Position numbers and translations under genes: made by a program | IMG/VR virus record: IMGVR_UViG_3300032073_000350 | Span: 1-20,195 of that record | Length of the DNA stretch: 20,195 bases | Origin: a virus | Strand: one strand, 5' to 3' | Notes under the pieces: model-generated | What the model was told of the DNA's origin: nothing | Database searches by the model: none | What the model saw: the letters and a program-made list of their open reading frames with translations, nothing else | Part shown: piece by piece, positions 4,216 through 15,760 of the stretch | Numbering within the stretch: the stretch's first letter is position 1 | How the letters are laid out: each line of letters begins with the position of its first letter

Positions 4216-6048
4216 TTAAGTATTATAGTACGAATCACTCTCGAAGTCAAGACTTATTTTTGGTATGGTATATACAAGTACTCGTTCTGTCTTACCCTTA
4301 ACCGTAGTCTCTCCTAGTTTTTCGTACTTATATTCAGGGACATGTCTTTTAGTATTCCCTGATACTACTAAATCGGTTTCAAACTCTTTGCATTGCCCTT
4401 CTAGCCTAGAAGCAAGATTAACTGCGTCACCAATAACGCTATAGTCAAACCTACTACTAGAACCCATGTTACCGACAATACACGGTCCAGTATTGATTCC
4501 GATTCCCGTATTGATTTCAAAGCCTCTTTCGGTCCTGAGAACATTATTTAACTCCTCTAGTGCCTGCCTCATTTCTAGGGCAGCTTGTACCGCATGGTAC
4601 GCATGATCTGGATCGTCTAAGGGAGCATTCCAAAAAGCCATAATACAGTCTCCCATGTATTTATCTACAGTACCTTTATGTTTCAAAATTACATCAGTTT
4701 GGTTAGTAAGAAACTTGTTAATAAGCTCGACTAAACCTTCTGGATTGTCTTTGAATGTTTCTGAGATTGGTGTGAATCCTCTTATATCGCAAAAGAGAAA
4801 TGTCATTTCTCGTCGATCTCCACCAAGCTTTAAAAGCTCTGGATTCTTTTGCAATTTTGCCACCATCCCAGGATCTAAATAATGTTCAAACTGTTTCTTT
4901 ATTTGAAGACGCAACTTAAATTGAGTATAAAAATTAATAAAACTTGATACGGCCCACAGTACAAAAGCACTTATAACTATGAAGGACGCATCTAGCAAAA
5001 TTCCTGAGGTTGTAAAATTATAGTATACATATGAAACTGATCCTCCTATTGCAAGTAAAAGAGCAGGAACCGATAAGTATAACTTAAAAGAACAAACGGC
5101 TATGAGTACGAGAATACCTAGCAAAGCTAGTAACTCTGTTCCTTCCGTCCAGTTTGGTCTTGAAATATTATTTCCTTGTATAAGTGTGGAAATAGCTGCC
5201 GCTTGAATCTCATGCGGAGCTTTTAAGCCATCAGGTGTTGCTACTAAGGTGGACGCACCTTTAGCAGTCACACCAATTAAAACAATTGGATACTCAGTGG
5301 GATTTGTAATATAGTCTTTTGCTGACATTCTCGAAAAGTTCGTATTCCAAGTAGTCCAAATCCTGCCCCGTGCATCAGTATCAATTATAGGAAGATTTTT
5401 CACTCTAAGCTTTTCTACTCCAGTTTTGCCCGTCTTTATCGAATAAGATTTTGCTCCTACTATTGTTCTTAAAACTTCTAGGCCGAAAGAAGGGTAGATC
5501 TCGTTATCTATATTAAAAACAAGAGGCAGTCTTCGTACTAAACCATCAACTTCTGGGGCAGTAGATGTAATTCCATTCCCTTTCGCAGATTCTTCTATAG
5601 CCGGAACATTTGTTAAAACTCCATCGTACTTAAAAAGAAACGGTGTAGGATCTTCTCCCATTCTTGCAGTACCCACATGCGGGGGTCGTCCTACAAATGT
5701 AGAATTTGACGCTGCAGCCGAGACCACCACGTTCTCGGTATTAATACATTTTCCTAAATTTTTGTCTCCTCCAAATCTATCTTCCTCAGGAAATAGGACG
5801 GAAAACCCCACAACTTGTCCACCCAACAACTTACAGAAGATTTGTCGAGGCCAAGGCCATTGACCAAGTCTCTGTAAACTGTCGTCATCAATATCCACGA
5901 GTAAAATATTTTCATCCCCTATGGTAGGTAGGGTAGAAATAAAATAATCAAAAGTTTTTAAGCGAAGTGTTTCGACAGGTGCAGGATCCCAAGCCCTTAG
6001 TCCCACGAGTGCAGCAATTGTAGCTACTATGATAATAAATTTTTTCAT
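4216..6048 (-). CDS. CHASE2-domain class III adenylate cyclase
   Basis: A 610-residue membrane enzyme predicted to turn ATP into cAMP. An N-terminal signal anchor (about 4-18) is followed by a periplasmic CHASE2 sensor (about 25-300, with FDYF and WPWPR motifs), three membrane helices (about 305-321, 324-345 and 350-372) and a cytoplasmic cyclase domain (about 410-597). Metal-binding aspartates are D421 (FCDIRGF) and D467 (MGDCIM). K463 and S537 occupy the base-selecting positions, consistent with ATP. N544 and R548 in VNLASR are the transition-state residues. All key residues are present, so it should be active. Its ATG overlaps the fecR stop (ATGA), so the two are translated together. Sensor and cyclase pairs with FecR proteins are known in bacteria but not, to my knowledge, usual in phages. 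Confidence 0.9.
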   Translation of the reverse strand: MKKFIIIVATIAALVGLRAWDPAPVETLRLKTFDYFISTLPTIGDENILLVDIDDDSLQRLGQWPWPRQIFCKLLGGQVVGFSVLFPEEDRFGGDKNLGKCINTENVVVSAAASNSTFVGRPPHVGTARMGEDPTPFLFKYDGVLTNVPAIEESAKGNGITSTAPEVDGLVRRLPLVFNIDNEIYPSFGLEVLRTIVGAKSYSIKTGKTGVEKLRVKNLPIIDTDARGRIWTTWNTNFSRMSAKDYITNPTEYPIVLIGVTAKGASTLVATPDGLKAPHEIQAAAISTLIQGNNISRPNWTEGTELLALLGILVLIAVCSFKLYLSVPALLLAIGGSVSYVYYNFTTSGILLDASFIVISAFVLWAVSSFINFYTQFKLRLQIKKQFEHYLDPGMVAKLQKNPELLKLGGDRREMTFLFCDIRGFTPISETFKDNPEGLVELINKFLTNQTDVILKHKGTVDKYMGDCIMAFWNAPLDDPDHAYHAVQAALEMRQALEELNNVLRTERGFEINTGIGINTGPCIVGNMGSSSRFDYSVIGDAVNLASRLEGQCKEFETDLVVSGNTKRHVPEYKYEKLGETTVKGKTERVLVYTIPKISLDFESDSYYNT

Positions 6049-7133
6049 TGTTGTTTAATAGATATATAAATATCTCCTCCATTGTTGATAAGAATGTTGA
6101 AGGTTTCTCCACCATCATCAAGCTTGATCGTATAGCTAGTTCCAGCCATAAGTTCTAGTCTGGTAGTGTTCTCTACTTGTCTTTGTAATATTACTTGACT
6201 TCCGTCTATAAAGGTAGAGATTTGAGTCCCAGGATCAAAGCCCACGGCTGTCCCTGCAATGGAAAAGGCTGTATCCTCCTGTGGTCCTTCTTGTCTTTGT
6301 CTTTCTTTCTCCTTTTCCATTTCCTCAAAGACGTCAAGTAAGTCTCTTAAAAAGTCTACATCAAGTAAATCTATGTCTAATTCTGTAAACTCTAAGTTTT
6401 CTTCGTTTGCATCTAGTTGATCTTCTAGTAGTTCTACGTCTAGTCCATCAAAGTCTAGTAAACTTGTATTTTCTTTTGTTTGTTGAATAGTCTCTTCTTC
6501 TTCTTTGGGTGGTGAGACTATAAGCATATTGTCAATAAGTTCCAAGGTTATATCAAGTATCTTTGGAGACGACGGAGTATTTTCAGCCAAAGAAACAGTA
6601 GTGGCTTGAAAAGGCTTATTTAGGGTAACATCGCCCACCATAGAAGAAACAATAATTTCTCCTGAAGCATCTCCAAATTCATCGGGCAGTAGTATTATGA
6701 GAGTTCTTCCTAGCTCATCTACAGTTGCGGTAAAGTCAGTACCCCGAATAGCTATCTCTGCTGTAGGAGTACGAATCTTTATATTATCTTTATCTATAGT
6801 GCCGAGAGCACCAGTTATGAATCTTGCAGTTCCTGAAGCAAAAGTCAGAGCAAGTTTTGATTTGGTAGGATCTGGATCGTAGACAAACTCGTCTATTATA
6901 ATCTCAGAGTGTTCTGTAAGTTTGAGAACAGAATCGTCTAGAAATTCTAGTTCTATTCGACCTGCTGCGGTGCGAACATCATCGTAGCTTTCTATTCCAA
7001 AATCTAGAATAGCTTCGTTTTGTTCTTTGTCACGAAAAACGGCAGCATTACCAAATACATCAGTTATGCTGCCGATATTCGCACTAACAAGTTGTGGAGC
7101 CAGAACCAGACTGAATAATACAAAGAGTCGCAT
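6045..7133 (-). CDS. Secreted FecR-domain protein
   Basis: 362 residues with a signal peptide (about 1-18, cut after LVSA). A FecR domain follows (about 45-145): DDVRTAAGRIELEF, then FASGTARFITG, then IRTPTAEIAIRGTDF, the classic ending. In other bacteria FecR domains sit in the periplasm and relay signals or bind partner proteins. The rest is an unusually acidic linker (about 205-285, many Asp/Glu/Leu) and a C-terminal beta-rich part (about 290-360). The start at 7133 lies inside the last 50 bases of the curlin-like gene and gives a clean signal peptide, although no strong Shine-Dalgarno is present. Overlap with the cyclase start suggests it modulates the CHASE2 sensor (inference). Confidence 0.85.
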   Translation of the reverse strand: MRLFVLFSLVLAPQLVSANIGSITDVFGNAAVFRDKEQNEAILDFGIESYDDVRTAAGRIELEFLDDSVLKLTEHSEIIIDEFVYDPDPTKSKLALTFASGTARFITGALGTIDKDNIKIRTPTAEIAIRGTDFTATVDELGRTLIILLPDEFGDASGEIIVSSMVGDVTLNKPFQATTVSLAENTPSSPKILDITLELIDNMLIVSPPKEEEETIQQTKENTSLLDFDGLDVELLEDQLDANEENLEFTELDIDLLDVDFLRDLLDVFEEMEKEKERQRQEGPQEDTAFSIAGTAVGFDPGTQISTFIDGSQVILQRQVENTTRLELMAGTSYTIKLDDGGETFNILINNGGDIYISIKQQ

Positions 7134-7968
7134 TTGTTGAACTTGTCCCGCTTCCTGTTGTTGAGAAATTTATGAAATCATTGGCTCCGGTAGAAGATTG
7201 GTAAATACCAATATCCCAATAATCTCCTGTTACTGTAATAGTAGAGCTGTGGCCATTACCTGTAGTAGCACCACTATTGTTAATACCCACATAGTCAATC
7301 TGATTATTATCTCCTGTTACTTCCCAGTTTTGGAAAACCCACTTGGAGTTAATTACAGCATTTATGACGTTATCATCCCCATCTATTTCCCAATCTAAAT
7401 CCATGTCACTTGAATCAGCTGCAGAGATAGATCCCATGCTGTTCCAGGAGTTTAGTCCTGTGTGAGTTACTGCACTGGCTGCATTAAATACGATTGTATT
7501 ATCGCTTCCATCTATTTCCCAGTCTACAGTACCTCCGTTGGCATCTGCACCCACACCATAGTTTATAGTCTGAGTATTGTTGCCTCCAAGTATTGTGTTT
7601 GTCCAAGTAGTACTGTCAATATCATAAGTGCCGGCTGGATTCCACTGTCCTGTAAGAACATTTGTATCTCCTGTCCATATGAAACTAAAGTTAGAAGTAT
7701 TTGAATTTATATCGGCTAAAAACTTGTTGTTATCTCCAATCTGATCTAAATTTAAAACAATGTTACTACTGTTAAGTAGCATAGCATTATCAACGGTAGT
7801 AGTGTTGCTAGTATCCCCTGCAACAATGTTACCGTCTCCTAACTGTTCTATGTCTACTTGGGTGTTTGTTGTACCTGTTGTTGTTTGTGTAATATAAATC
7901 TGATTATCAACTGCGTAGGCTGAGCCAGCTACAAGTAATCCGAGTAATGCTAGTAATGAACGTTTCAC
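7084..7968 (-). CDS. Curlin-like repeat protein (putative amyloid fibre subunit)
   Basis: 294 residues with a signal peptide (about 1-19, SAYA). Two good curlin-type units occur near the N-terminus (VDIEQLGDGN at 38-47, LNLDQIGDNN at 72-81). Looser WEIDGxDN/WEVTGDNN units recur at about 150, 193 and 215. The protein is rich in Asn, Thr, Ser, Gly and Asp and poor in Lys, as amyloid curli subunits are. It ends with a two-cysteine tail (CIIQSGSGSTTC). It follows csgG immediately, sharing one base. Export through the CsgG pore and fibre formation on the cell surface is the family-based expectation. It is longer and more divergent than CsgA/CsgB, so the assembled form is uncertain. Confidence 0.8.
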   Translation of the reverse strand: MKRSLLALLGLLVAGSAYAVDNQIYITQTTTGTTNTQVDIEQLGDGNIVAGDTSNTTTVDNAMLLNSSNIVLNLDQIGDNNKFLADINSNTSNFSFIWTGDTNVLTGQWNPAGTYDIDSTTWTNTILGGNNTQTINYGVGADANGGTVDWEIDGSDNTIVFNAASAVTHTGLNSWNSMGSISAADSSDMDLDWEIDGDDNVINAVINSKWVFQNWEVTGDNNQIDYVGINNSGATTGNGHSSTITVTGDYWDIGIYQSSTGANDFINFSTTGSGTSSTNATLCIIQSGSGSTTC

Positions 7969-8765
7969 TACTGTTCTCCCAGTTGAAAGGCCCAGAAGCC
8001 TTTCTCTTCTCCTTCGATAACTGTTTGGTAGACCGCAGTTTCAATAGCTTCTCTTAAAGCTATTGCACTACTCTCATTTTCAGTTGCTCCGGCTTCCAAT
8101 TCAACTAGTTGTGTACCGGCTTCTACAAATCTGAAAACGTCCCCTGACACTCCGACGGAAAGAATCTTTTTGGTCACAAGGACCTCTATTAATATTTCTC
8201 CTGTTAGAACTGAGACAGTGCGCAAAGATACAGTTACGGTATCTTCTCTAAATTCTCGGGAAGCTCCTATGCCTAATGTTCTTGCCCCCATCCCTCCTGT
8301 TCTTAAGTTTGTTTCGTAATCTACTACCCCACCTTGCATTAAAAGTCCTGCAAACAGCAGTGGGCCCAATTTGTTGTCTTCTTCAAAGTCTCTTCGAGTA
8401 CTTCTTATTATTTGACGCTCTCGTGTTATATTATCAATACCAACACGTTCTACTACTTTAAAAAACTTGCCTCCTGCGGCATGTTTTAGTGCCCGTATCA
8501 AGTATGCCTCGGGCGCTGTAGTTATGGCTGTAGAGAATAAAGCAAACTGTGAGTTGCTTTTTCTCTGGCCTGTCTTATCACCAAAAGCACCTGAATATAT
8601 CGCTATCACAGGCTGTCTGCTTGCTGGTTGTAAGTTGTATAGTTGATCTACCTTTAGAGTTGCTACCTCTGCGTTTTTTGTTGAATATGCTATCTGGCCA
8701 GTAGCACAGCTAGCCATCATCGTCGTAAACGTTAAACTGATCAACAGGCACTTCAATTTGTGTAC
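7968..8765 (-). CDS. csgG: CsgG-like outer-membrane curli secretion lipoprotein
   Basis: About 265 residues. From the GTG at 8765 the first 20 residues form a typical lipoprotein signal ending in the lipobox MASC; the same frame opens earlier at an ATG (8810), which would add 15 residues and is also possible. The mature part follows the CsgG pattern: VIAIYSGAFGDKTGQRK near the start, LIRALKHAAGGKFFKVVER, then TVSLRTVSVLTGEILIEV near the C-terminal third. CsgG forms a nonameric pore that exports curli subunits. The gene overlaps the end of csgF and touches the curlin-like gene, giving the order csgF-csgG-curlin. Size is close to the usual 277 residues. Confidence 0.9.
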   Translation of the reverse strand, partial: VHKLKCLLISLTFTTMMASCATGQIAYSTKNAEVATLKVDQLYNLQPASRQPVIAIYSGAFGDKTGQRKSNSQFALFSTAITTAPEAYLIRALKHAAGGKFFKVVERVGIDNITRERQIIRSTRRDFEEDNKLGPLLFAGLLMQGGVVDYETNLRTGGMGARTLGIGASREFREDTVTVSLRTVSVLTGEILIEVLVTKKILSVGVSGDVFRFVEAGTQLVELEAGATENESSAIALREAIETAVYQTVIEGEEKGFWAFQLGEQ

Positions 8766-9234
8766 ATAGGTCGCTTTCTTCACAGCTTTCAAAAGTTCCG
8801 TCTTCACCATATTTACCAGGATAAGTCTCCATAATGAGCCTACCGTCTAGCATATAGTACCTGATATAATAATCCTCGCTTGTAAAGTAAAATCTGCTCT
8901 CGAAGTCGTCTCCGAGCGCTCCACCTTCAAACAGACTTTCGACTAACTCTTTTGAAAGTCTAGAATATATCCTGCTTTCAAAGTTGCGAAGAAACTTGTT
9001 AATAGTGCTGTTTTCTTCTTCGCGCTCCAGTTCATCGAGTCTTGCTTGAATTTCTGCTTGCAGCTCTTTTTTTCGGTTTGTCTCTTGATTCTCTATCGTC
9101 AAGTAATGACTTGATGTGTTGATCCCGCTGAACGACGGGCTCTTGAATTTGTGAGTCATCTGGTCTGCTTCCGCTATTGTCGGAGCTATTAATAAAGCTA
9201 TTATCGCTATTACCACTTTTATGCCGTTTTTCAT
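8710..9234 (-). CDS. csgF: CsgF-like curli assembly factor
   Basis: 174 residues from ATG 9234 (an upstream ATG at 9249 is in frame but would spoil the signal peptide). A signal peptide (about 1-23, IAEA) precedes THKFKSPSFSGINTSSHYLT, which matches the conserved start of mature CsgF that plugs into the CsgG constriction. A charged helix (about 60-80) and a C-terminal domain with YYIRYYMLDGRL and two cysteines (ESCEESDLCTQ) follow. CsgF ties secretion to nucleation at the cell surface. The first 203 bases overlap, in another frame, the coding sequence of the membrane protein upstream, and its end overlaps csgG. Confidence 0.84.
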   Translation of the reverse strand: MKNGIKVVIAIIALLIAPTIAEADQMTHKFKSPSFSGINTSSHYLTIENQETNRKKELQAEIQARLDELEREEENSTINKFLRNFESRIYSRLSKELVESLFEGGALGDDFESRFYFTSEDYYIRYYMLDGRLIMETYPGKYGEDGTFESCEESDLCTQIEVPVDQFNVYDDDG

Positions 9235-9454
9235 ATTCAAGCACCACATTTACTTTTTGCTGCAAACGAATTAAATCATTGTCAAGCATTCGTACTTGGT
9301 CAATGACTTTGATCAAGCTTAAGTGAGATTTTTCTAACTTTGGCGTGATCTGTTCTGTAACGTATTTCCAAATGTAGTAGATATAGTAGCCCATACCTAC
9401 TGCCATAACTATTGGAAAACCAAACTTTTGTATAGCATCAATCGCGTCTTGCAT
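9032..9454 (-). CDS. Membrane-anchored coiled-coil protein, paralog of the upstream gene
   Basis: 140 residues from ATG 9454, chosen because this start aligns with the paralog encoded at 9438-9716; ATGs at 9466, 9502 and 9511 are alternatives. One membrane helix (about 13-30, GFPIVMAVGMGYYIYYI) leads to a probable coiled coil (about 40-75, with VRMLDNDLIRLQQKV) and a long polar tail rich in Ser, Asp, Lys and Arg. The tail is read from the DNA that also encodes the start of csgF in another frame. Topology resembles an inner-membrane spanin or holin-associated protein, which is inference. Confidence 0.62.
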   Translation of the reverse strand: MQDAIDAIQKFGFPIVMAVGMGYYIYYIWKYVTEQITPKLEKSHLSLIKVIDQVRMLDNDLIRLQQKVNVVLEYEKRHKSGNSDNSFINSSDNSGSRPDDSQIQEPVVQRDQHIKSLLDDRESRDKPKKRAASRNSSKTR

Positions 9455-11224: not shown

Positions 11225-11503
11225 TTATCCCCTAATATCAGCAAGCCCTTCTTCTCCGCCAAGAATTGGAGGACCAATAATTACTGGATCATCTCGCATT
11301 TCTTCTGGAAACCGAACTTTCTTTGCTTCCCACTCTTCTTGAGTTCTGCACTGATATCTTTTTTTGTTGTTCCAATAATTAGAGTAAAACTTCCCACACC
11401 ACTCCCCTTGATCGTTCATTTTTAATTTGAACTCTTCTTTTTCTTCTATTGCAAAAGACGTAAGAGGTGCTACCACTAATGCTGCTGCCAATAAAACTTT
11501 CAC
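11225..11503 (-). CDS. Small secreted protein with two cysteines
   Basis: 92 residues from a GTG at 11503, preceded by AAGGAGA. The frame also opens at 11551, but that codon lies on the edge of the promoter -10 and is not usable. A short signal peptide (MKVLLAAALVVAPLTSFA) gives a mature protein of about 74 residues: acidic/basic start, a Cys pair (EWCGKFYSNYWNNKKRYQC) that could form a disulfide, and a Pro/Gly-rich end. It is probably periplasmic. I do not recognise the family. It is a monocistronic unit next to the outer-membrane barrel gene, and may also act on the envelope. Confidence 0.7.
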   Translation of the reverse strand: MKVLLAAALVVAPLTSFAIEEKEEFKLKMNDQGEWCGKFYSNYWNNKKRYQCRTQEEWEAKKVRFPEEMRDDPVIIGPPILGGEEGLADIRG

Positions 11504-11551
11504 TATGTTCTCCTTTTTGTGAGCTTTGAAATCACCTTGATTTCGGAACAT

Positions 11552-11580
11552 ATTATAACAGTACTGGGATGCTTTGTCAA
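11552..11580 (-). promoter_or_regulatory. Promoter of the small secreted protein
   Basis: Minus strand TTGACA (11580-11575), exactly 17 bases, TATAAT (11557-11552): perfect consensus, with AAAAATAGTTG upstream of the -35. Confidence 0.8.
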
Positions 11581-11812
11581 CAACTATTTTTCTGTGCTAA
11601 TATTTCGTTAAGATTTCGTTAATATTTGATGATGTCAAAAATACCCAAAGTCGTACGTGTTGGGGACGCCCGCGGCGGGCGCGAAAGTCAAGTCAAATAA
11701 CCGCCCCTCCTTAGATCTTTTTGTTCTAGCAAGCCGATCGCATATAACAAATCGGTATTGGACACGAGGGGGTGGGGGTGGTACTCTTAGGGTTCATTAA
11801 TTGGAGATGGTT
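11581..11812. other. Divergent intergenic region between left and right arms
   Basis: No convincing gene. It holds a GC-rich hairpin CGCCCG-CGG-CGGGCG (about 11667-11681) and a G-rich tract with runs of five, five, two and three guanines (about 11768-11792) that could fold as a G-quadruplex. A weak rightward promoter candidate is TTGGAC (11758-11763) with TACTCT (11782-11787). The GC rise of the following segment begins here. Confidence 0.5.
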
Positions 11813-12016
11813 ATGCAAACACTTGGCACATTCATAGGCGCGGCGGCTCTGACATTTGTTGTTAGTTTGTTTGCGCTAACAGGTTTTATCTTTCTTGACA
11901 ATGGCGACAACTGGCTAACAAATGCGCTCGGCGTTTCGATGATGGTTATGTCTTTCCTACTTGTTACGCTCGCGTTTCATATTGTCAAACTTTATGCTGA
12001 GCGAGGCGCGCGATAA
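11813..12016 (+). CDS. Two-helix membrane protein
   Basis: 67 residues from ATG 11813, placed after GGAG with a six-base gap; an in-frame ATG at 11801 is upstream of that ribosome-binding site. Two hydrophobic segments (about 5-27 and 38-58) are joined by a short polar loop (DNGDNWLTN), and the tail is KLYAERGAR. It looks like a small inner-membrane protein of unknown function. It is the first plus-strand gene and the first of the higher-GC block. Confidence 0.65.
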   Translation: MQTLGTFIGAAALTFVVSLFALTGFIFLDNGDNWLTNALGVSMMVMSFLLVTLAFHIVKLYAERGAR

Positions 12017-12043
12017 CTTCCATTATTCCTCCATTATTCAGGC

Positions 12044-12072
12044 TTGACTTTTGGGCGAAGATCACCGATAAT
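12044..12072 (+). promoter_or_regulatory. Promoter of the higher-GC operon
   Basis: TTGACT (12044-12049), 17-base spacer, GATAAT (12067-12072), then AGGAG before the ATG at 12100. Confidence 0.7.
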
Positions 12073-12099
12073 ACCCCTTCACTAACTAGGAGACTACAT

Positions 12100-12390
12100 A
12101 TGTCTAACTACACTCCGGCGATGATCGCCAAGCTGCAAGCCGCAGCTCCCCTTAACCTTGCTGTTGCCAAGGATCTTGCTGCCGATTTCGGTCTGTCGCA
12201 TCGCTCTATCATATCCAAGGCGAAAAGCCTCGGCTTGGAATATGTCAAGGCTTCGCCCAAGGTGAAAGCTGTCAAGCAGCCCACCAAGGCCGAGATGGTT
12301 GCAGCCATCCGCGCGGCGGTTGCCTTGCCAGATCGCGAGGGCGATTTGACCAAAGCCGAATTGGTTAGCGTGTTGGAGCATCTCGGATGA
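12100..12390 (+). CDS. Putative DNA-binding protein, paralog 1 of 3
   Basis: 96 residues. It shares a layout with the products at 15078-15407 and 17791-18129: an opening NYT, a helix-turn-helix-like stretch ending in RSIISKAKSLGLEY (about 36-50), a basic linker with T/K repeats, then a C-terminal helical half (about 63-95) that begins TKAEMVAAIRAAV and ends LTKAELVSVLEHL. I recall this family from T4-like marine phages, with unknown function. The helix-turn-helix reading is inference. It starts an operon whose next gene overlaps by ATGA. Its codon use is GC-richer than its two paralogs. Confidence 0.68.
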   Translation: MSNYTPAMIAKLQAAAPLNLAVAKDLAADFGLSHRSIISKAKSLGLEYVKASPKVKAVKQPTKAEMVAAIRAAVALPDREGDLTKAELVSVLEHLG

Positions 12391-12593
12391 GATTGCTCCG
12401 CACCTTAGCGGATTGGTTGGGGGCGCTGGCGTTATGCTGCGCTCCCTTCATAATCGACACGCTCGAAGGGAAGGTTCTAGCCATCGTCGGGCTTGCATTG
12501 TTGACCTTGCAAGCCATACGAAAAGAATGCTATAATCTGGTTTTACTTAACATTATCGGCATTGGAGGATATTTTTATGCGATTCATTTTTGA
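12387..12593 (+). CDS. Small membrane protein
   Basis: 68 residues; ATG overlaps the stop of the previous gene (ATGA). Three hydrophobic stretches are seen (about 10-24, 29-43 and 50-66), the last with NLVLLNIIGIGGYFYAIHF. It resembles short phage and bacterial membrane proteins without known function. Translational coupling with both neighbours is likely, as the end overlaps the HAD gene by 17 bases. Confidence 0.62.
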   Translation: MRLLRTLADWLGALALCCAPFIIDTLEGKVLAIVGLALLTLQAIRKECYNLVLLNIIGIGGYFYAIHF

Positions 12594-13035
12594 CCTAGAC
12601 GGAACCGTCATTGACTCTAGCCATCGCCTCGGCGATTCGCTGGACGATTGGCGGCGACTAAATACGCCGGACAATATCGCCGCCGATGGCGAGCTACCAT
12701 TGTTCGACCAAATGCTCGACGCTATCAATGATGGGCTAGACGTTATCGTTTGCACTTCCCGCGTGATGGGGGTACATGATTTCCAATGGCTCAAGGCACA
12801 CGGCATCGACGGGATCACGATTCTATGCCGCGACTCTAGGGATGCTCGGCATTGTGGATTCTTCAAGCTGGCATTGCTCCACGACTATGCAAAATCGTTG
12901 GGCATGACTTGGGCAAGATTCCGCCGAACTTCGATTATGTTTGATGATTCGATTGAGGTTCAAAATACGCTCAAAAGCGTTGGACTTCGCGTGATTGATC
13001 CTGTAAACTATAACCTCAATATAAGGACAGCTTAA
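12577..13035 (+). CDS. HAD-superfamily phosphatase
   Basis: 152 residues from ATG 12577, preceded by GGAGG (an ATG at 12562 lies upstream of that site). HAD motif I is FDLDGT (D6 is the nucleophile, D8 the acid), motif II is the threonine in VIVCTSR (about 62), and motif IV is the MFDDS acid pair (about 120). Cap domain is small. Relatives in phages include polynucleotide 3'-phosphatases and nucleotidases. Given the exonuclease next door, a DNA or RNA end-repair or nucleotide-salvage role is plausible but not shown by the sequence. Confidence 0.8.
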   Translation: MRFIFDLDGTVIDSSHRLGDSLDDWRRLNTPDNIAADGELPLFDQMLDAINDGLDVIVCTSRVMGVHDFQWLKAHGIDGITILCRDSRDARHCGFFKLALLHDYAKSLGMTWARFRRTSIMFDDSIEVQNTLKSVGLRVIDPVNYNLNIRTA

Positions 13036-13036
13036 A

Positions 13037-13717
13037 ATGACTATAGCGAAAAAATCAATCATGGTTCTGGATACCGAAACGTGCGACCTAAAAGGCCACG
13101 TTTACGATGTCGGTTACACGGTTACAAATCGCAAGGGCGAGATTCTCAAAACCTACAACGCATTGGTTGCGGAGATTTTCACCGATGCCGAGCTAATGAT
13201 GGGCGCATTCTACGCGAGAAAACTATTCTCGCACTATGCTCCAATGCTCGACCGTGGCGAGATTTCGCTGAAGCCTTGGGGTGAGATTGTCGCGCAAATG
13301 CGAGCCGATGTTACGGAATACGGAATCAATGTTGTCGCGGCTTACAACCTCGGCTTTGATCGTCGCGTGATGCGAACCACAAACAAATTGTTGGGCGATG
13401 GCCCCGTGTTTGAAGGCTGCTTTCCTAACCCACGATTGCTCGACATTTGGCAATTCGCTTGCGAAACCAAATTGTCACAAGCGCGATACAAGCAAATCGC
13501 TAGGAATCTCGGTTGGATGTCTGCCGCTGGCAATATCAAGACCGGCGCTGAATACGCCTACCGATTCTGCTCTGGCGACCACGGTTTTATCGAAGATCAC
13601 ACCGCTTTGTCGGACGCAATCATCGAGACGAAAATTCTCGCGGATTGCTACGCTTGCAAAAAATCTGTCCCCTACGGGATCACAAACGCTCAACCTTGGA
13701 GAATCGTAAATGCGTGA
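13037..13717 (+). CDS. DEDDh 3'-5' exonuclease (DnaQ/RNase T-like)
   Basis: 226 residues. The DEDDh catalytic set is visible: D12 and E14 (VLDTETCD), D108 (AYNLGFD) and H188/D193 (DHTALSD). This fold removes nucleotides from 3' ends and serves as proofreader, RNase or degrader of host DNA. No polymerase domain is attached, so it is a free-standing exonuclease. It starts two bases after the HAD stop and shares eight bases with the next small gene, so it is clearly part of the same operon. Substrate (DNA or RNA) cannot be told from sequence. Confidence 0.85.
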   Translation: MTIAKKSIMVLDTETCDLKGHVYDVGYTVTNRKGEILKTYNALVAEIFTDAELMMGAFYARKLFSHYAPMLDRGEISLKPWGEIVAQMRADVTEYGINVVAAYNLGFDRRVMRTTNKLLGDGPVFEGCFPNPRLLDIWQFACETKLSQARYKQIARNLGWMSAAGNIKTGAEYAYRFCSGDHGFIEDHTALSDAIIETKILADCYACKKSVPYGITNAQPWRIVNA

Positions 13718-13820
13718 TACTAAATTTTGGAAAATCTTGGTCGCCGCCTATATGATTTATTCTGTCAGCGCGGATATAATTCTGATCTGCGGGATCGCAT
13801 GGCTACTCCTGACGGGGTAG
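13710..13820 (+). CDS. 36-residue membrane peptide
   Basis: ATG 13710-13712 to TAG 13818-13820; it overlaps the exonuclease stop (ATGCGTGA) and has GGAG eight bases upstream. A basic head (MRDTKFWK) is followed by about 25 hydrophobic residues, so a single-pass inner-membrane peptide is expected. It could be a toxin-like or regulatory peptide. No family is recognised. Confidence 0.5.
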   Translation: MRDTKFWKILVAAYMIYSVSADIILICGIAWLLLTG

Positions 13821-13836
13821 CCAAGGGGCGCGGCGA

Positions 13837-13852
13837 TGTTCCACGTGAAACA
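13837..13852 (+). promoter_or_regulatory. parS: Exact parS site (ParB-binding sequence)
   Basis: TGTTCCACGTGAAACA is identical to the classic bacterial chromosomal parS 16-mer, an almost perfect palindrome bound by ParB, which then spreads and loads condensin. No parA or parB gene is in this window, so host ParB is the obvious candidate partner. Confidence 0.8.
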
Positions 13853-13952
13853 CTCCCCGAAAAAAACTCAATTAATGCTTGACTTTAGCAAAATTTTGGC
13901 GCGCGGGCGCCAGTGTGGGAGTGAAGTATCTACCCTAAATGCCCTCTGCGCC

Positions 13953-13981
13953 ATTATGAGTGCAAAAGCTAAGAATGTCAA
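13953..13981 (-). promoter_or_regulatory. Leftward promoter in module A
   Basis: Minus strand TTGACA (13981-13976), 17 bases, CATAAT (13958-13953). It fires towards plus-strand genes, so it would make antisense RNA or feed leftward transcription. Confidence 0.5.
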
Positions 13982-14029
13982 GTCTTTTTTACGGGTGTGC
14001 GCAAAATAATTTTAGATTGGGCAAGTCTT
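13974..14029. repeat. Direct repeat copy A (regulatory module)
   Basis: About 56 bases from AATGTCAAGTCTTTTTT to GATTGGGCAAGTCTT, imperfectly matching copy B at 14101-14155. Each copy starts with the -35 of a leftward promoter. Confidence 0.65.
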
Positions 14030-14322: not shown

Positions 14323-14351
14323 TTGACAGAGAGTGCTTAGGGTTGTATAAT
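14323..14351 (+). promoter_or_regulatory. Consensus promoter of the PPK2 gene
   Basis: TTGACA (14323-14328), 17 bases, TATAAT (14346-14351), followed by the TATACGCATA block shared with other right-arm promoters and AGGAGAA before the ATG. Confidence 0.82.
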
Positions 14352-14374: not shown

Positions 14375-15016
14375 ATGAATAAATTAGAAACCCAACAGGC
14401 TCGGCTCAACCAAATCGTAATGTCAAAAGACTTCGGTCCGACTGCGATTGTGCTTGAAGGTCGTGATACTGCGGGCAAATCATCTACGATCCGAGAGGTT
14501 ACCCACTACTTGCCTGTAAGCAAATTTGGTGTACAGCTATCTGCCAAACCTAGTCAAAAAACTATGGAAAGCTGGCTAGATTACTGGGGTACCAAAATGC
14601 CGTCAGGCAAGCAGATGGTATTCTACGACCGATCTTGGTACTCAAGAGCAATGGTACAAAAGATCAATGGCTGGTGCTCTAACGACCAGTATCAGGATTT
14701 CATGGAAGATGTAAATTTTTGGGAGAAAGCACAAGCTCCTGTTCGAATGGTTAAGTTCTGGCTGTCTATCAGCGAAGAAGAACAGGCTAGCAGATTGGCT
14801 GAGAGGAAAGTATCCCCGCTCAAATTTTGGAAGTTGTCCCCAAACGACGAGCGAGCATTATCATATTACGACGAGATGACCCTACTCAAAGAAAGGGTAT
14901 TGACAACTACTAACAATTGGTATACAATTAACTACAACAACAAGCCAGAGGGACGACTAGCTCTTATCACAAAACTCTGCGACATACTGGAGACAAAAAG
15001 TGAAAAAAGTTCTTGA
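14375..15016 (+). CDS. ppk2: Polyphosphate kinase 2 family protein
   Basis: 213 residues; PPK2 enzymes move phosphate between polyphosphate and nucleoside mono- or diphosphates. Walker A is EGRDTAGKSS (28-37), matching the PPK2 pattern EGRDAAGKGG. The second motif YDRSWYSRAMV (84-94) parallels the family's NRSWYNRAGV, with D85 and R86. The lid SRLAERKVSPLKFWKLSPND (139-158) has the expected Arg/Lys set and the WKLSP signature. It is slightly shorter than typical PPK2 (about 230-300) but lacks no core motif. Likely role: making ADP/ATP or GDP/GTP from polyphosphate for phage synthesis; class cannot be assigned by eye. The end of the gene overlaps the next promoter. Confidence 0.88.
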   Translation: MNKLETQQARLNQIVMSKDFGPTAIVLEGRDTAGKSSTIREVTHYLPVSKFGVQLSAKPSQKTMESWLDYWGTKMPSGKQMVFYDRSWYSRAMVQKINGWCSNDQYQDFMEDVNFWEKAQAPVRMVKFWLSISEEEQASRLAERKVSPLKFWKLSPNDERALSYYDEMTLLKERVLTTTNNWYTINYNNKPEGRLALITKLCDILETKSEKSS

Positions 15017-15041
15017 CATTTTAACCTTTGGCTTGTATAAT
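15013..15041 (+). promoter_or_regulatory. Consensus promoter of paralog 2 and probably the tmRNA
   Basis: TTGACA (15013-15018), 17 bases, TATAAT (15036-15041), overlapping the last codon of the PPK2 gene. No terminator is obvious before the tmRNA, so it may be read from here. Confidence 0.8.
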
Positions 15042-15077: not shown

Positions 15078-15407
15078 ATGGCAGATTCAGCAGTTAACTA
15101 CACTGAAGAGATGGTATCAACCATGGTCGATCAGTACGAAGCTGAGCCTACAATGGCAACTGTAGAAGCATTAGCAGGACAGTTCGACAAGCCAAAGCGC
15201 AGCATCATTTCTAAGCTGTCTAACATTGGCATCTACATTCCTGCAAGCAAGGGCAAAACCAAAACTGGTGCTCCTGTAGTTCGCAAGGACGAGCTGGTAG
15301 CTGAGATTCAAGCATCACTTGGTGTGGAAGTACCTACTCTTGCCAAGGCTACTAAAGGTGACCTAGAAAAATTGTTGGGAGCACTTTCAATAGTATCTAC
15401 ACAGTAA
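15078..15407 (+). CDS. Putative DNA-binding protein, paralog 2 of 3
   Basis: 109 residues from ATG 15078 with GGGAGA upstream; the frame opens earlier at 15000, but that would begin inside the PPK2 gene and before this promoter. It has NYTEEMVSTMVDQY, then a helix-turn-helix-like part ending in KPKRSIISKLSNIGIYIPA (about 44-62), a basic TKTG linker and a C-terminal helix pair (KDELVAEIQASLG; KGDLEKLLGAL). It is the clearest member of the three-copy family in this window. A regulator of phage transcription is a reasonable guess. Confidence 0.75.
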   Translation: MADSAVNYTEEMVSTMVDQYEAEPTMATVEALAGQFDKPKRSIISKLSNIGIYIPASKGKTKTGAPVVRKDELVAEIQASLGVEVPTLAKATKGDLEKLLGALSIVSTQ

Positions 15408-15410
15408 TTC

Positions 15411-15760
15411 GCTGAAACTAAAGTAGGGTTGAGTGGACGGGGGTTCGATTCCCCCCTCCTCCACCATAAGAGCATCAAGGTGCTTTTATGATGGGGGAGC
15501 ATGGTTTCGACAAGCAATCTCAGGTTAGTGGAGAATCGGTGAGCAACCTACCGTAAATGGAAGAACCTAAATTAAACGCAAACGATGACGTTTATTCTCT
15601 AGCTGCATAAGCTAGCGGGCAAGGCCTCTCGGCTTGTTATCCAAAGGAGAGGCACTCAGAAAGCATACTGGGAAGACCGCGACCGTCCCCTGCGTAGGGA
15701 TGGATATGTCAGAAAAGATCGGGGAGAAGCAGATCGTGACCCCAGCCCAGTATGTTTTCT
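15411..15760 (+). ncRNA. ssrA: Circularly permuted tmRNA (ssrA)
   Basis: tmRNA rescues stalled ribosomes and tags the protein for degradation. Here the 3' acceptor piece comes first: T-arm GGGGG-TTCGATT-CCCCC, acceptor strand CTCCTCC and encoded ACCA end at 15466. The 5' piece begins at 15493 with GGGGGAG, which pairs with CTCCTCC and contains the G3-U70 wobble that marks alanine charging. D-loop-like TGGTTTCGAC follows. A 26-base segment between the pieces forms a nine-pair hairpin (ATAAGAGCA/TGCTTTTAT) likely removed by processing. The tag frame is 15578-15610. A 13-pair helix (15660-15672 with 15746-15758, one G-U) encloses the later pseudoknots. Outer ends are approximate. Permutation is typical of Alphaproteobacteria and cyanobacteria. 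Confidence 0.93.
15578..15610 (+). other. tmRNA tag frame, peptide ANDDVYSLAA
   Basis: Resume codon GCA at 15578, then ten sense codons and TAA: A-N-D-D-V-Y-S-L-A-A. It ends in the LAA protease signal and resembles the E. coli tag ANDENYALAA; alphaproteobacterial tags are usually longer. Confidence 0.92.

Follow-up and report, generated by a model that had tools for sequence, protein, structure and literature searches.

A two-piece tmRNA gene in a marine phage and the apparent exchange of structural blocks among its relatives

Results

The window, i.e., the whole stretch of viral DNA that we analyzed (20,195 nucleotides, IMG/VR record IMGVR_UViG_3300032073_000350), contains a permuted tmRNA gene with the tag ANDDVYSLAA, which is the sole RNA gene called by ARAGORN in the record. 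Scanning with cmscan against Rfam identified the same gene at 15406–15610 as a member of RF04321 (tmRNA_permuted), with a score of 115.3 bits (E 2.8e-22) against a family cut-off of 47. Since ARAGORN and Rfam are independent finders and concur, the permuted tmRNA call is firm. An earlier note, prepared from the sequence alone, had proposed a circularly permuted phage tmRNA with this very tag at 15411–15760, with a covariance search as the check; the permuted model bears it out, and its coordinates are correct to within a few bases.

The gene, on the + strand like all its parts, has the upstream acceptor piece, intervening spacer, and downstream coding piece that the note had also read. The acceptor piece (15406–15466), which is matched by the RF04321 model from position 1 and corresponds to the 3′ tRNA domain in ARAGORN, includes the 5′ strands of P2, the T arm (15439–15455), the 3′ acceptor strand, and CCA, and is 92–100% identical in 14 relatives. 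It is followed by a 26-nt spacer (15467–15492), expected to be removed, which forms a hairpin (z −4.7 when folded together with its flanks) and exists as alleles of 4 to 75 nt in relatives. The coding piece (15493–15653, the 3′ end being provisional), delineated by ARAGORN and cmscan, consists of the 5′ acceptor strand GGGGGAG, the TTTCGAC loop, the 3′ strands of P2, the first pseudoknot (PK1), the resume site, the tag, and the second pseudoknot (PK2). As the note had stated, CCA is encoded and the G3-U70 wobble is present, so at the sequence level the tRNA-like domain is in place, with an acceptor stem (GGGGGAG/CUCCUCC) paired at 7 of 7 positions, G3-U70 included. The PK1 region (15537–15577) corresponds to what we term allele A, an unrelated allele B being found here in half of the relatives. 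The resume site leads into the short frame ANDDVYSLAA-stop (15578–15610, called by ARAGORN), which has a hydrophobic degron end, and then into PK2 (15617–15653), both stems of which show two-sided compensatory change in five genes. Beyond lies a 3′ hairpin (15658–15760; z −3.4), whose outer stem has 15 bp and whose structured interior gives way to other interiors in relatives. This hairpin has no Rfam match, nor did scanning Rfam to E 1 reveal any further credible RNA family in the locus, so it is not explained by a riboswitch or a known ribozyme; it may be a transcription or processing boundary. Judged by its sequence, this is a genuine two-piece tmRNA gene borne by a marine phage.

The gene content of the record points to a tailed, distantly T5-like phage and includes a terminase large subunit 48% identical to terminases of Pectobacterium, Vibrio, Erwinia, and Pantoea phages, and a MazG-type pyrophosphohydrolase. 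A search for named relatives that would allow host assignment found none past these distant T5-like terminases. The tmRNA gene directly follows an ORF (15078–15407, + strand) of the phage DNA-binding protein family phrog_1725 and is downstream of a candidate promoter TTGACA-17-TATAAT (15013–15041, + strand), a consensus match only, at 12 of 12 sigma-70-type positions. Therefore, the tmRNA is probably part of the transcription unit of this ORF. Perfect consensus promoters are also found at 14323 and 16057. Upstream on the same strand (14375–15016) is a gene for a polyphosphate kinase 2 (PPK2) family protein, for which phage records contain few relatives, none of them above 40% identity. Elsewhere, a curli-cyclase block on the − strand (4216–9249) encodes CsgF, CsgG, a curlin-like repeat protein, a FecR-domain protein, and a CHASE2-adenylate/guanylate cyclase. 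The same block is carried by the phage Melnitz, and pelagiphage HTVC008M has csgG and the cyclase (36–45% identity); since it is shared although the terminase in the window is T5-like, this block apparently moves among marine phages that are not related to one another. Finally, between the oppositely transcribed halves of the record, from about 11500 to 14000, G+C rises from about 0.38–0.41 to 0.46–0.51 with a skew near zero. This stretch, which encodes a polynucleotide-kinase-like protein and a phrog_20187 protein, either was acquired recently or reflects a join in the assembly.

The tmRNA gene looks maintained when its sequence is compared with those of its relatives. The exact P2 core pattern is present in 14 IMG/VR contigs, and in related contigs the gene is found at one place beside the same ORF. 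Among the relatives compared, the tRNA-like core is 89–100% identical, with the adjoining ORF down to 61–77% between groups, and the acceptor piece, P2, the resume site, and the tag are near-invariant, the tag being held at ANDDVY(S/Q)LAA in most. Five genes with the long 3′ block display three two-sided compensatory pairs, of which two are in PK2 (one per stem) and the third is within the 3′ hairpin; the shuffled mean is 0.6, and no such pair arises in slid controls. In the crossing stem of PK2, the changed pair is C-G in the window and G-C in the four relatives. Coming from five sequences only, these changes are supportive, not conclusive, of the gene being maintained. Across a set of 71 distinct permuted genes, almost all of them viral, pairing at acceptor pairs 5 and 6 is never lost despite sequence variation; for the remaining acceptor pairs, the 3′ sides were dictated by the search pattern and carry no weight. 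The gene is dispensable, since two long contigs with relatives of the upstream ORF (L218 and L219) have no tmRNA nearby. That the RNA might instead be a decoy or modulator, titrating SmpB or AlaRS and thereby inhibiting host trans-translation, has a precedent in the tmRNA of mycobacteriophage DS6A, which has a tRNA-like domain only and is reported to inhibit tmRNA, perhaps by SmpB titration (PMC4131195, PMC11915505). We find this improbable because a decoy needs none of what is retained here, namely, the tag frame, the resume site, PK2, and a tag constrained to ANDDVY(S/Q)LAA in most relatives.

Around the conserved core, near relatives differ in whole blocks. Spacers are of 4, 26, 30, 65, 68, 73 (two types, 73a and 73b), or 75 nt; PK1 is either allele A, as in the window, or the unrelated allele B; the tag ends in SLAA, QLAA, or D(I/M)AA; the interior of the 3′ hairpin is long (as in the window), short, of a third form (L243), or missing; and a tRNA-Cys after the tmRNA is present or absent depending on the relative. 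It is directly downstream of the tmRNA in L205, L206, L208, L214, and L221. In L214 and L221, the one-piece “standard tmRNA” Rfam matches cover both the coding piece and this tRNA-Cys, and we regard them as an artefact of the model rather than a second form of the gene. The 4-nt spacer, CGAT, in L209 (3422–3520), L212, L213, and L215 is among the shortest of the permuted genes studied here.

These blocks occur in mixed combinations. All four pairings are found between PK1 A/B and spacers 73a/73b (L129, L221, L244, and L241), and between PK1 A/B and the long/short 3′ block (window, L212, L221, and L213), PK1 A with a short 3′ block or a 4-nt spacer being represented by contig L212 alone, in a type of data (metagenome assemblies) that may contain chimeras. 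Compared with shuffled sequence, the larger spacers and the 3′ blocks fold better (z −2.1 to −4.7). Such differences might have arisen by repeated independent insertion, deletion, or divergence rather than by recombination between phages, as the spacers and loops of structured RNAs change fast and a 4-nt spacer might arise more than once through deletion. However, PK1 A and B align at only 45–60% identity (in short gapped pairs), and yet each is tight among its carriers (74–100% within A, 91–100% within B), which have near-identical flanking sequence and display all four combinations with other blocks. Furthermore, some spacers are 99% identical between phages whose neighboring ORFs are just 63–67% identical, and convergence on such 73-nt spacers is implausible. 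We thus consider independent change unlikely, and intragenic recombination through the conserved core to be the best account of the mixed block alleles and of near-identical spacers beside diverged ORFs. Our comparison suggests that these phages trade whole structural blocks of their tmRNA. Searching IMG/VR with the 3′ insert gave matches only in contigs already carrying tmRNAs of this clade, and there is therefore no evidence for a free mobile RNA element.

The gene does not belong to the alphaproteobacterial type (RF01849). First, the T arm of permuted genes from Alphaproteobacteria is distinct (GGGGGCGGTACCC), whereas that in the window is canonical (GGTTCGATTCC). Second, in a tree of 109 genes and 134 columns, in which many forks are unresolved, the window and other viral genes are split from the alphaproteobacterial genes and Melnitz with a support of 100/98. 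The T arm and the tree together exclude this type. The window's side of that split also contains four Burkholderiales-type genes, and in this tree the window's own clade and the neighboring clades are all viral. The betaproteobacterial model RF01850 (beta_tmRNA) is matched at 15362–15658 with 88.2 bits against a cut-off of 84, and the tree lends no support either way to a link with betaproteobacterial genes; among the relatives scanned, RF01850 is listed for none, and L211 passes the alphaproteobacterial model instead. The earlier note saw a mix in the association of a permuted form with a gammaproteobacterial-looking tag, and took it as telling of host or gene origin. The likeness of the tag stands, as ANDDxYALAA tags in the bacteria sampled are all from one-piece genes. 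A special origin is not needed because permuted Burkholderiales genes also bear short AND...ALAA tags (ANDESYALAA and ANDERFALAA), so the mix is no contradiction and the puzzle is largely resolved.

Is the gene a recent acquisition? As discussed in PMC9004378, integration often takes place at tmRNA genes, and fragments of these genes can be carried by phages. A phage could have picked up a host tmRNA in this way, for example at an ssrA integration site. This is, in our opinion, very unlikely: over the core, the nearest bacterial gene is 67% identical versus 96% for the nearest viral one (among genes sampled, bacterial sampling being partial), and many diverged phages have the gene at this same position. 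Only 2 of 41 genomes from the order of Pelistega pass the permuted model, which points to a bacterial reservoir that is narrow for this form and thinly covered by our sampling. When 369 genomes from the class to which Pelistega belongs were searched at the DNA level, the matches were short and nearly all in the T arm, and hence reveal no near donor. Long residence in phages is a likely part of our best explanation as a whole.

Two-piece tmRNA genes have been described in phages before and are common among those from aquatic habitats. Buchholz et al. 2022 described 53 of them among 133 distinct phage tmRNA structures, 50 being marine or aquatic (PMC9004378). While a first, strict pattern had zero matches in IMG/VR, a looser one for the non-alphaproteobacterial permuted form returned at least 119, the canonical T arm that it demanded meaning that alphaproteobacterial-type genes could not be returned. 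Nearly all of the loci fetched are permuted according to ARAGORN. The belief in the earlier note that phage copies of this form are rare is contradicted by both datasets. Several viral permuted tmRNAs (L008, L036, L051, L020, L027, and L059) have tags of up to 31–33 residues or ending in AHA, ANA, or AGA, some of which may be ARAGORN frame errors.

Discussion

The explanation that we favor, and regard as likely, is that this two-piece tmRNA gene, borne by a marine tailed phage that is distantly T5-like, is functional and produces a host-processed rescue and tagging RNA that has undergone mosaic evolution. A single precursor would be transcribed jointly with the DNA-binding ORF, probably from the consensus promoter at 15013. 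By analogy with established tmRNA biology, host RNase P would cleave before 15493, and host 3′ processing would leave the CCA end at 15466, with the acceptor and coding pieces predicted to stay joined via the acceptor stem and P2. The RNA would then be charged by host AlaRS via G3-U70 and carried to stalled ribosomes by SmpB, which must be assumed to come from the host since no smpB was recognized among the window proteins scanned. There, (A)ANDDVYSLAA would be appended and the tagged product degraded by ClpXP. Within the E. coli tag, SspB is bound through AANDENY and ClpX through ALAA (PMC8512704); (A)ANDDVYSLAA retains the AAND, the tyrosine, and the LAA of that tag, which makes a host with SspB and ClpXP likely. 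The benefit for the phage would probably be that ribosome recycling and protein quality control are kept going during cell takeover. The roles previously proposed for phage tmRNAs are to maintain the machinery that the phage has hijacked or to tag host proteins so that they are recycled (PMC9004378).

By itself, the gene is one more group of the known phage two-piece tmRNAs, of a non-alphaproteobacterial type, from a lineage of marine phages that has many relatives in metagenomes. What is apparently new, and most deserving of follow-up, is the block exchange among near relatives; we found no earlier description of domain shuffling within a tmRNA gene in the open-licence literature. Through recombination via the near-invariant core, phages would swap blocks with one another, namely, the spacer, PK1, the tag end, and the 3′ hairpin. 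A broader idea, to which we give even chances, is that the tmRNAs of this clade are combinatorial, the tRNA-like core being a recombination joint for swapping spacers, PK1s, tag ends, and 3′ domains, which perhaps tunes processing, ribosome handling, or escape from host nucleases. The mixing of alleles reveals which parts of a tmRNA are interchangeable in nature (a spacer of 4 to 75 nt, two unrelated PK1s, and several 3′ blocks) and which are fixed, and these natural variants could be used to probe the minimal spacer for two-piece maturation and the role of PK1.

Comparison with known systems highlights similarities and differences. Melnitz, a phage of OM43, also has a permuted tmRNA gene in a marine phage (PMC9004378), and its curli-cyclase genes are likewise present elsewhere in the window. 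However, the T arm in Melnitz is of the alphaproteobacterial type, nearly the same as GGGGGCGGTACCC, whereas it is canonical in the window; its tag is ANDNYVPVDYALAA rather than ANDDVYSLAA; its spacer is 142 nt long (by ARAGORN) rather than 26 nt; and the glutamine riboswitch reported in Melnitz (PMC9004378) has no counterpart detected by Rfam in the window locus. The permuted tmRNAs of Burkholderiales (RF01850) share with the window the gene order, a canonical T loop, the TGGTTTCGACA loop, a 10-residue AND...LAA tag, and a score over the cut-off of that family. They differ in that the core in the window is only about 60–67% identical to the Burkholderiales genes sampled, and in that their terminator hairpin is replaced in the window by an exchangeable 3′ hairpin. 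Lastly, the one-piece tmRNAs of gammaproteobacteria have tags that resemble ANDDVYSLAA, such as ANDDAYALAA and ANDDNYALAA, but their gene order is unpermuted, unlike that in the window.
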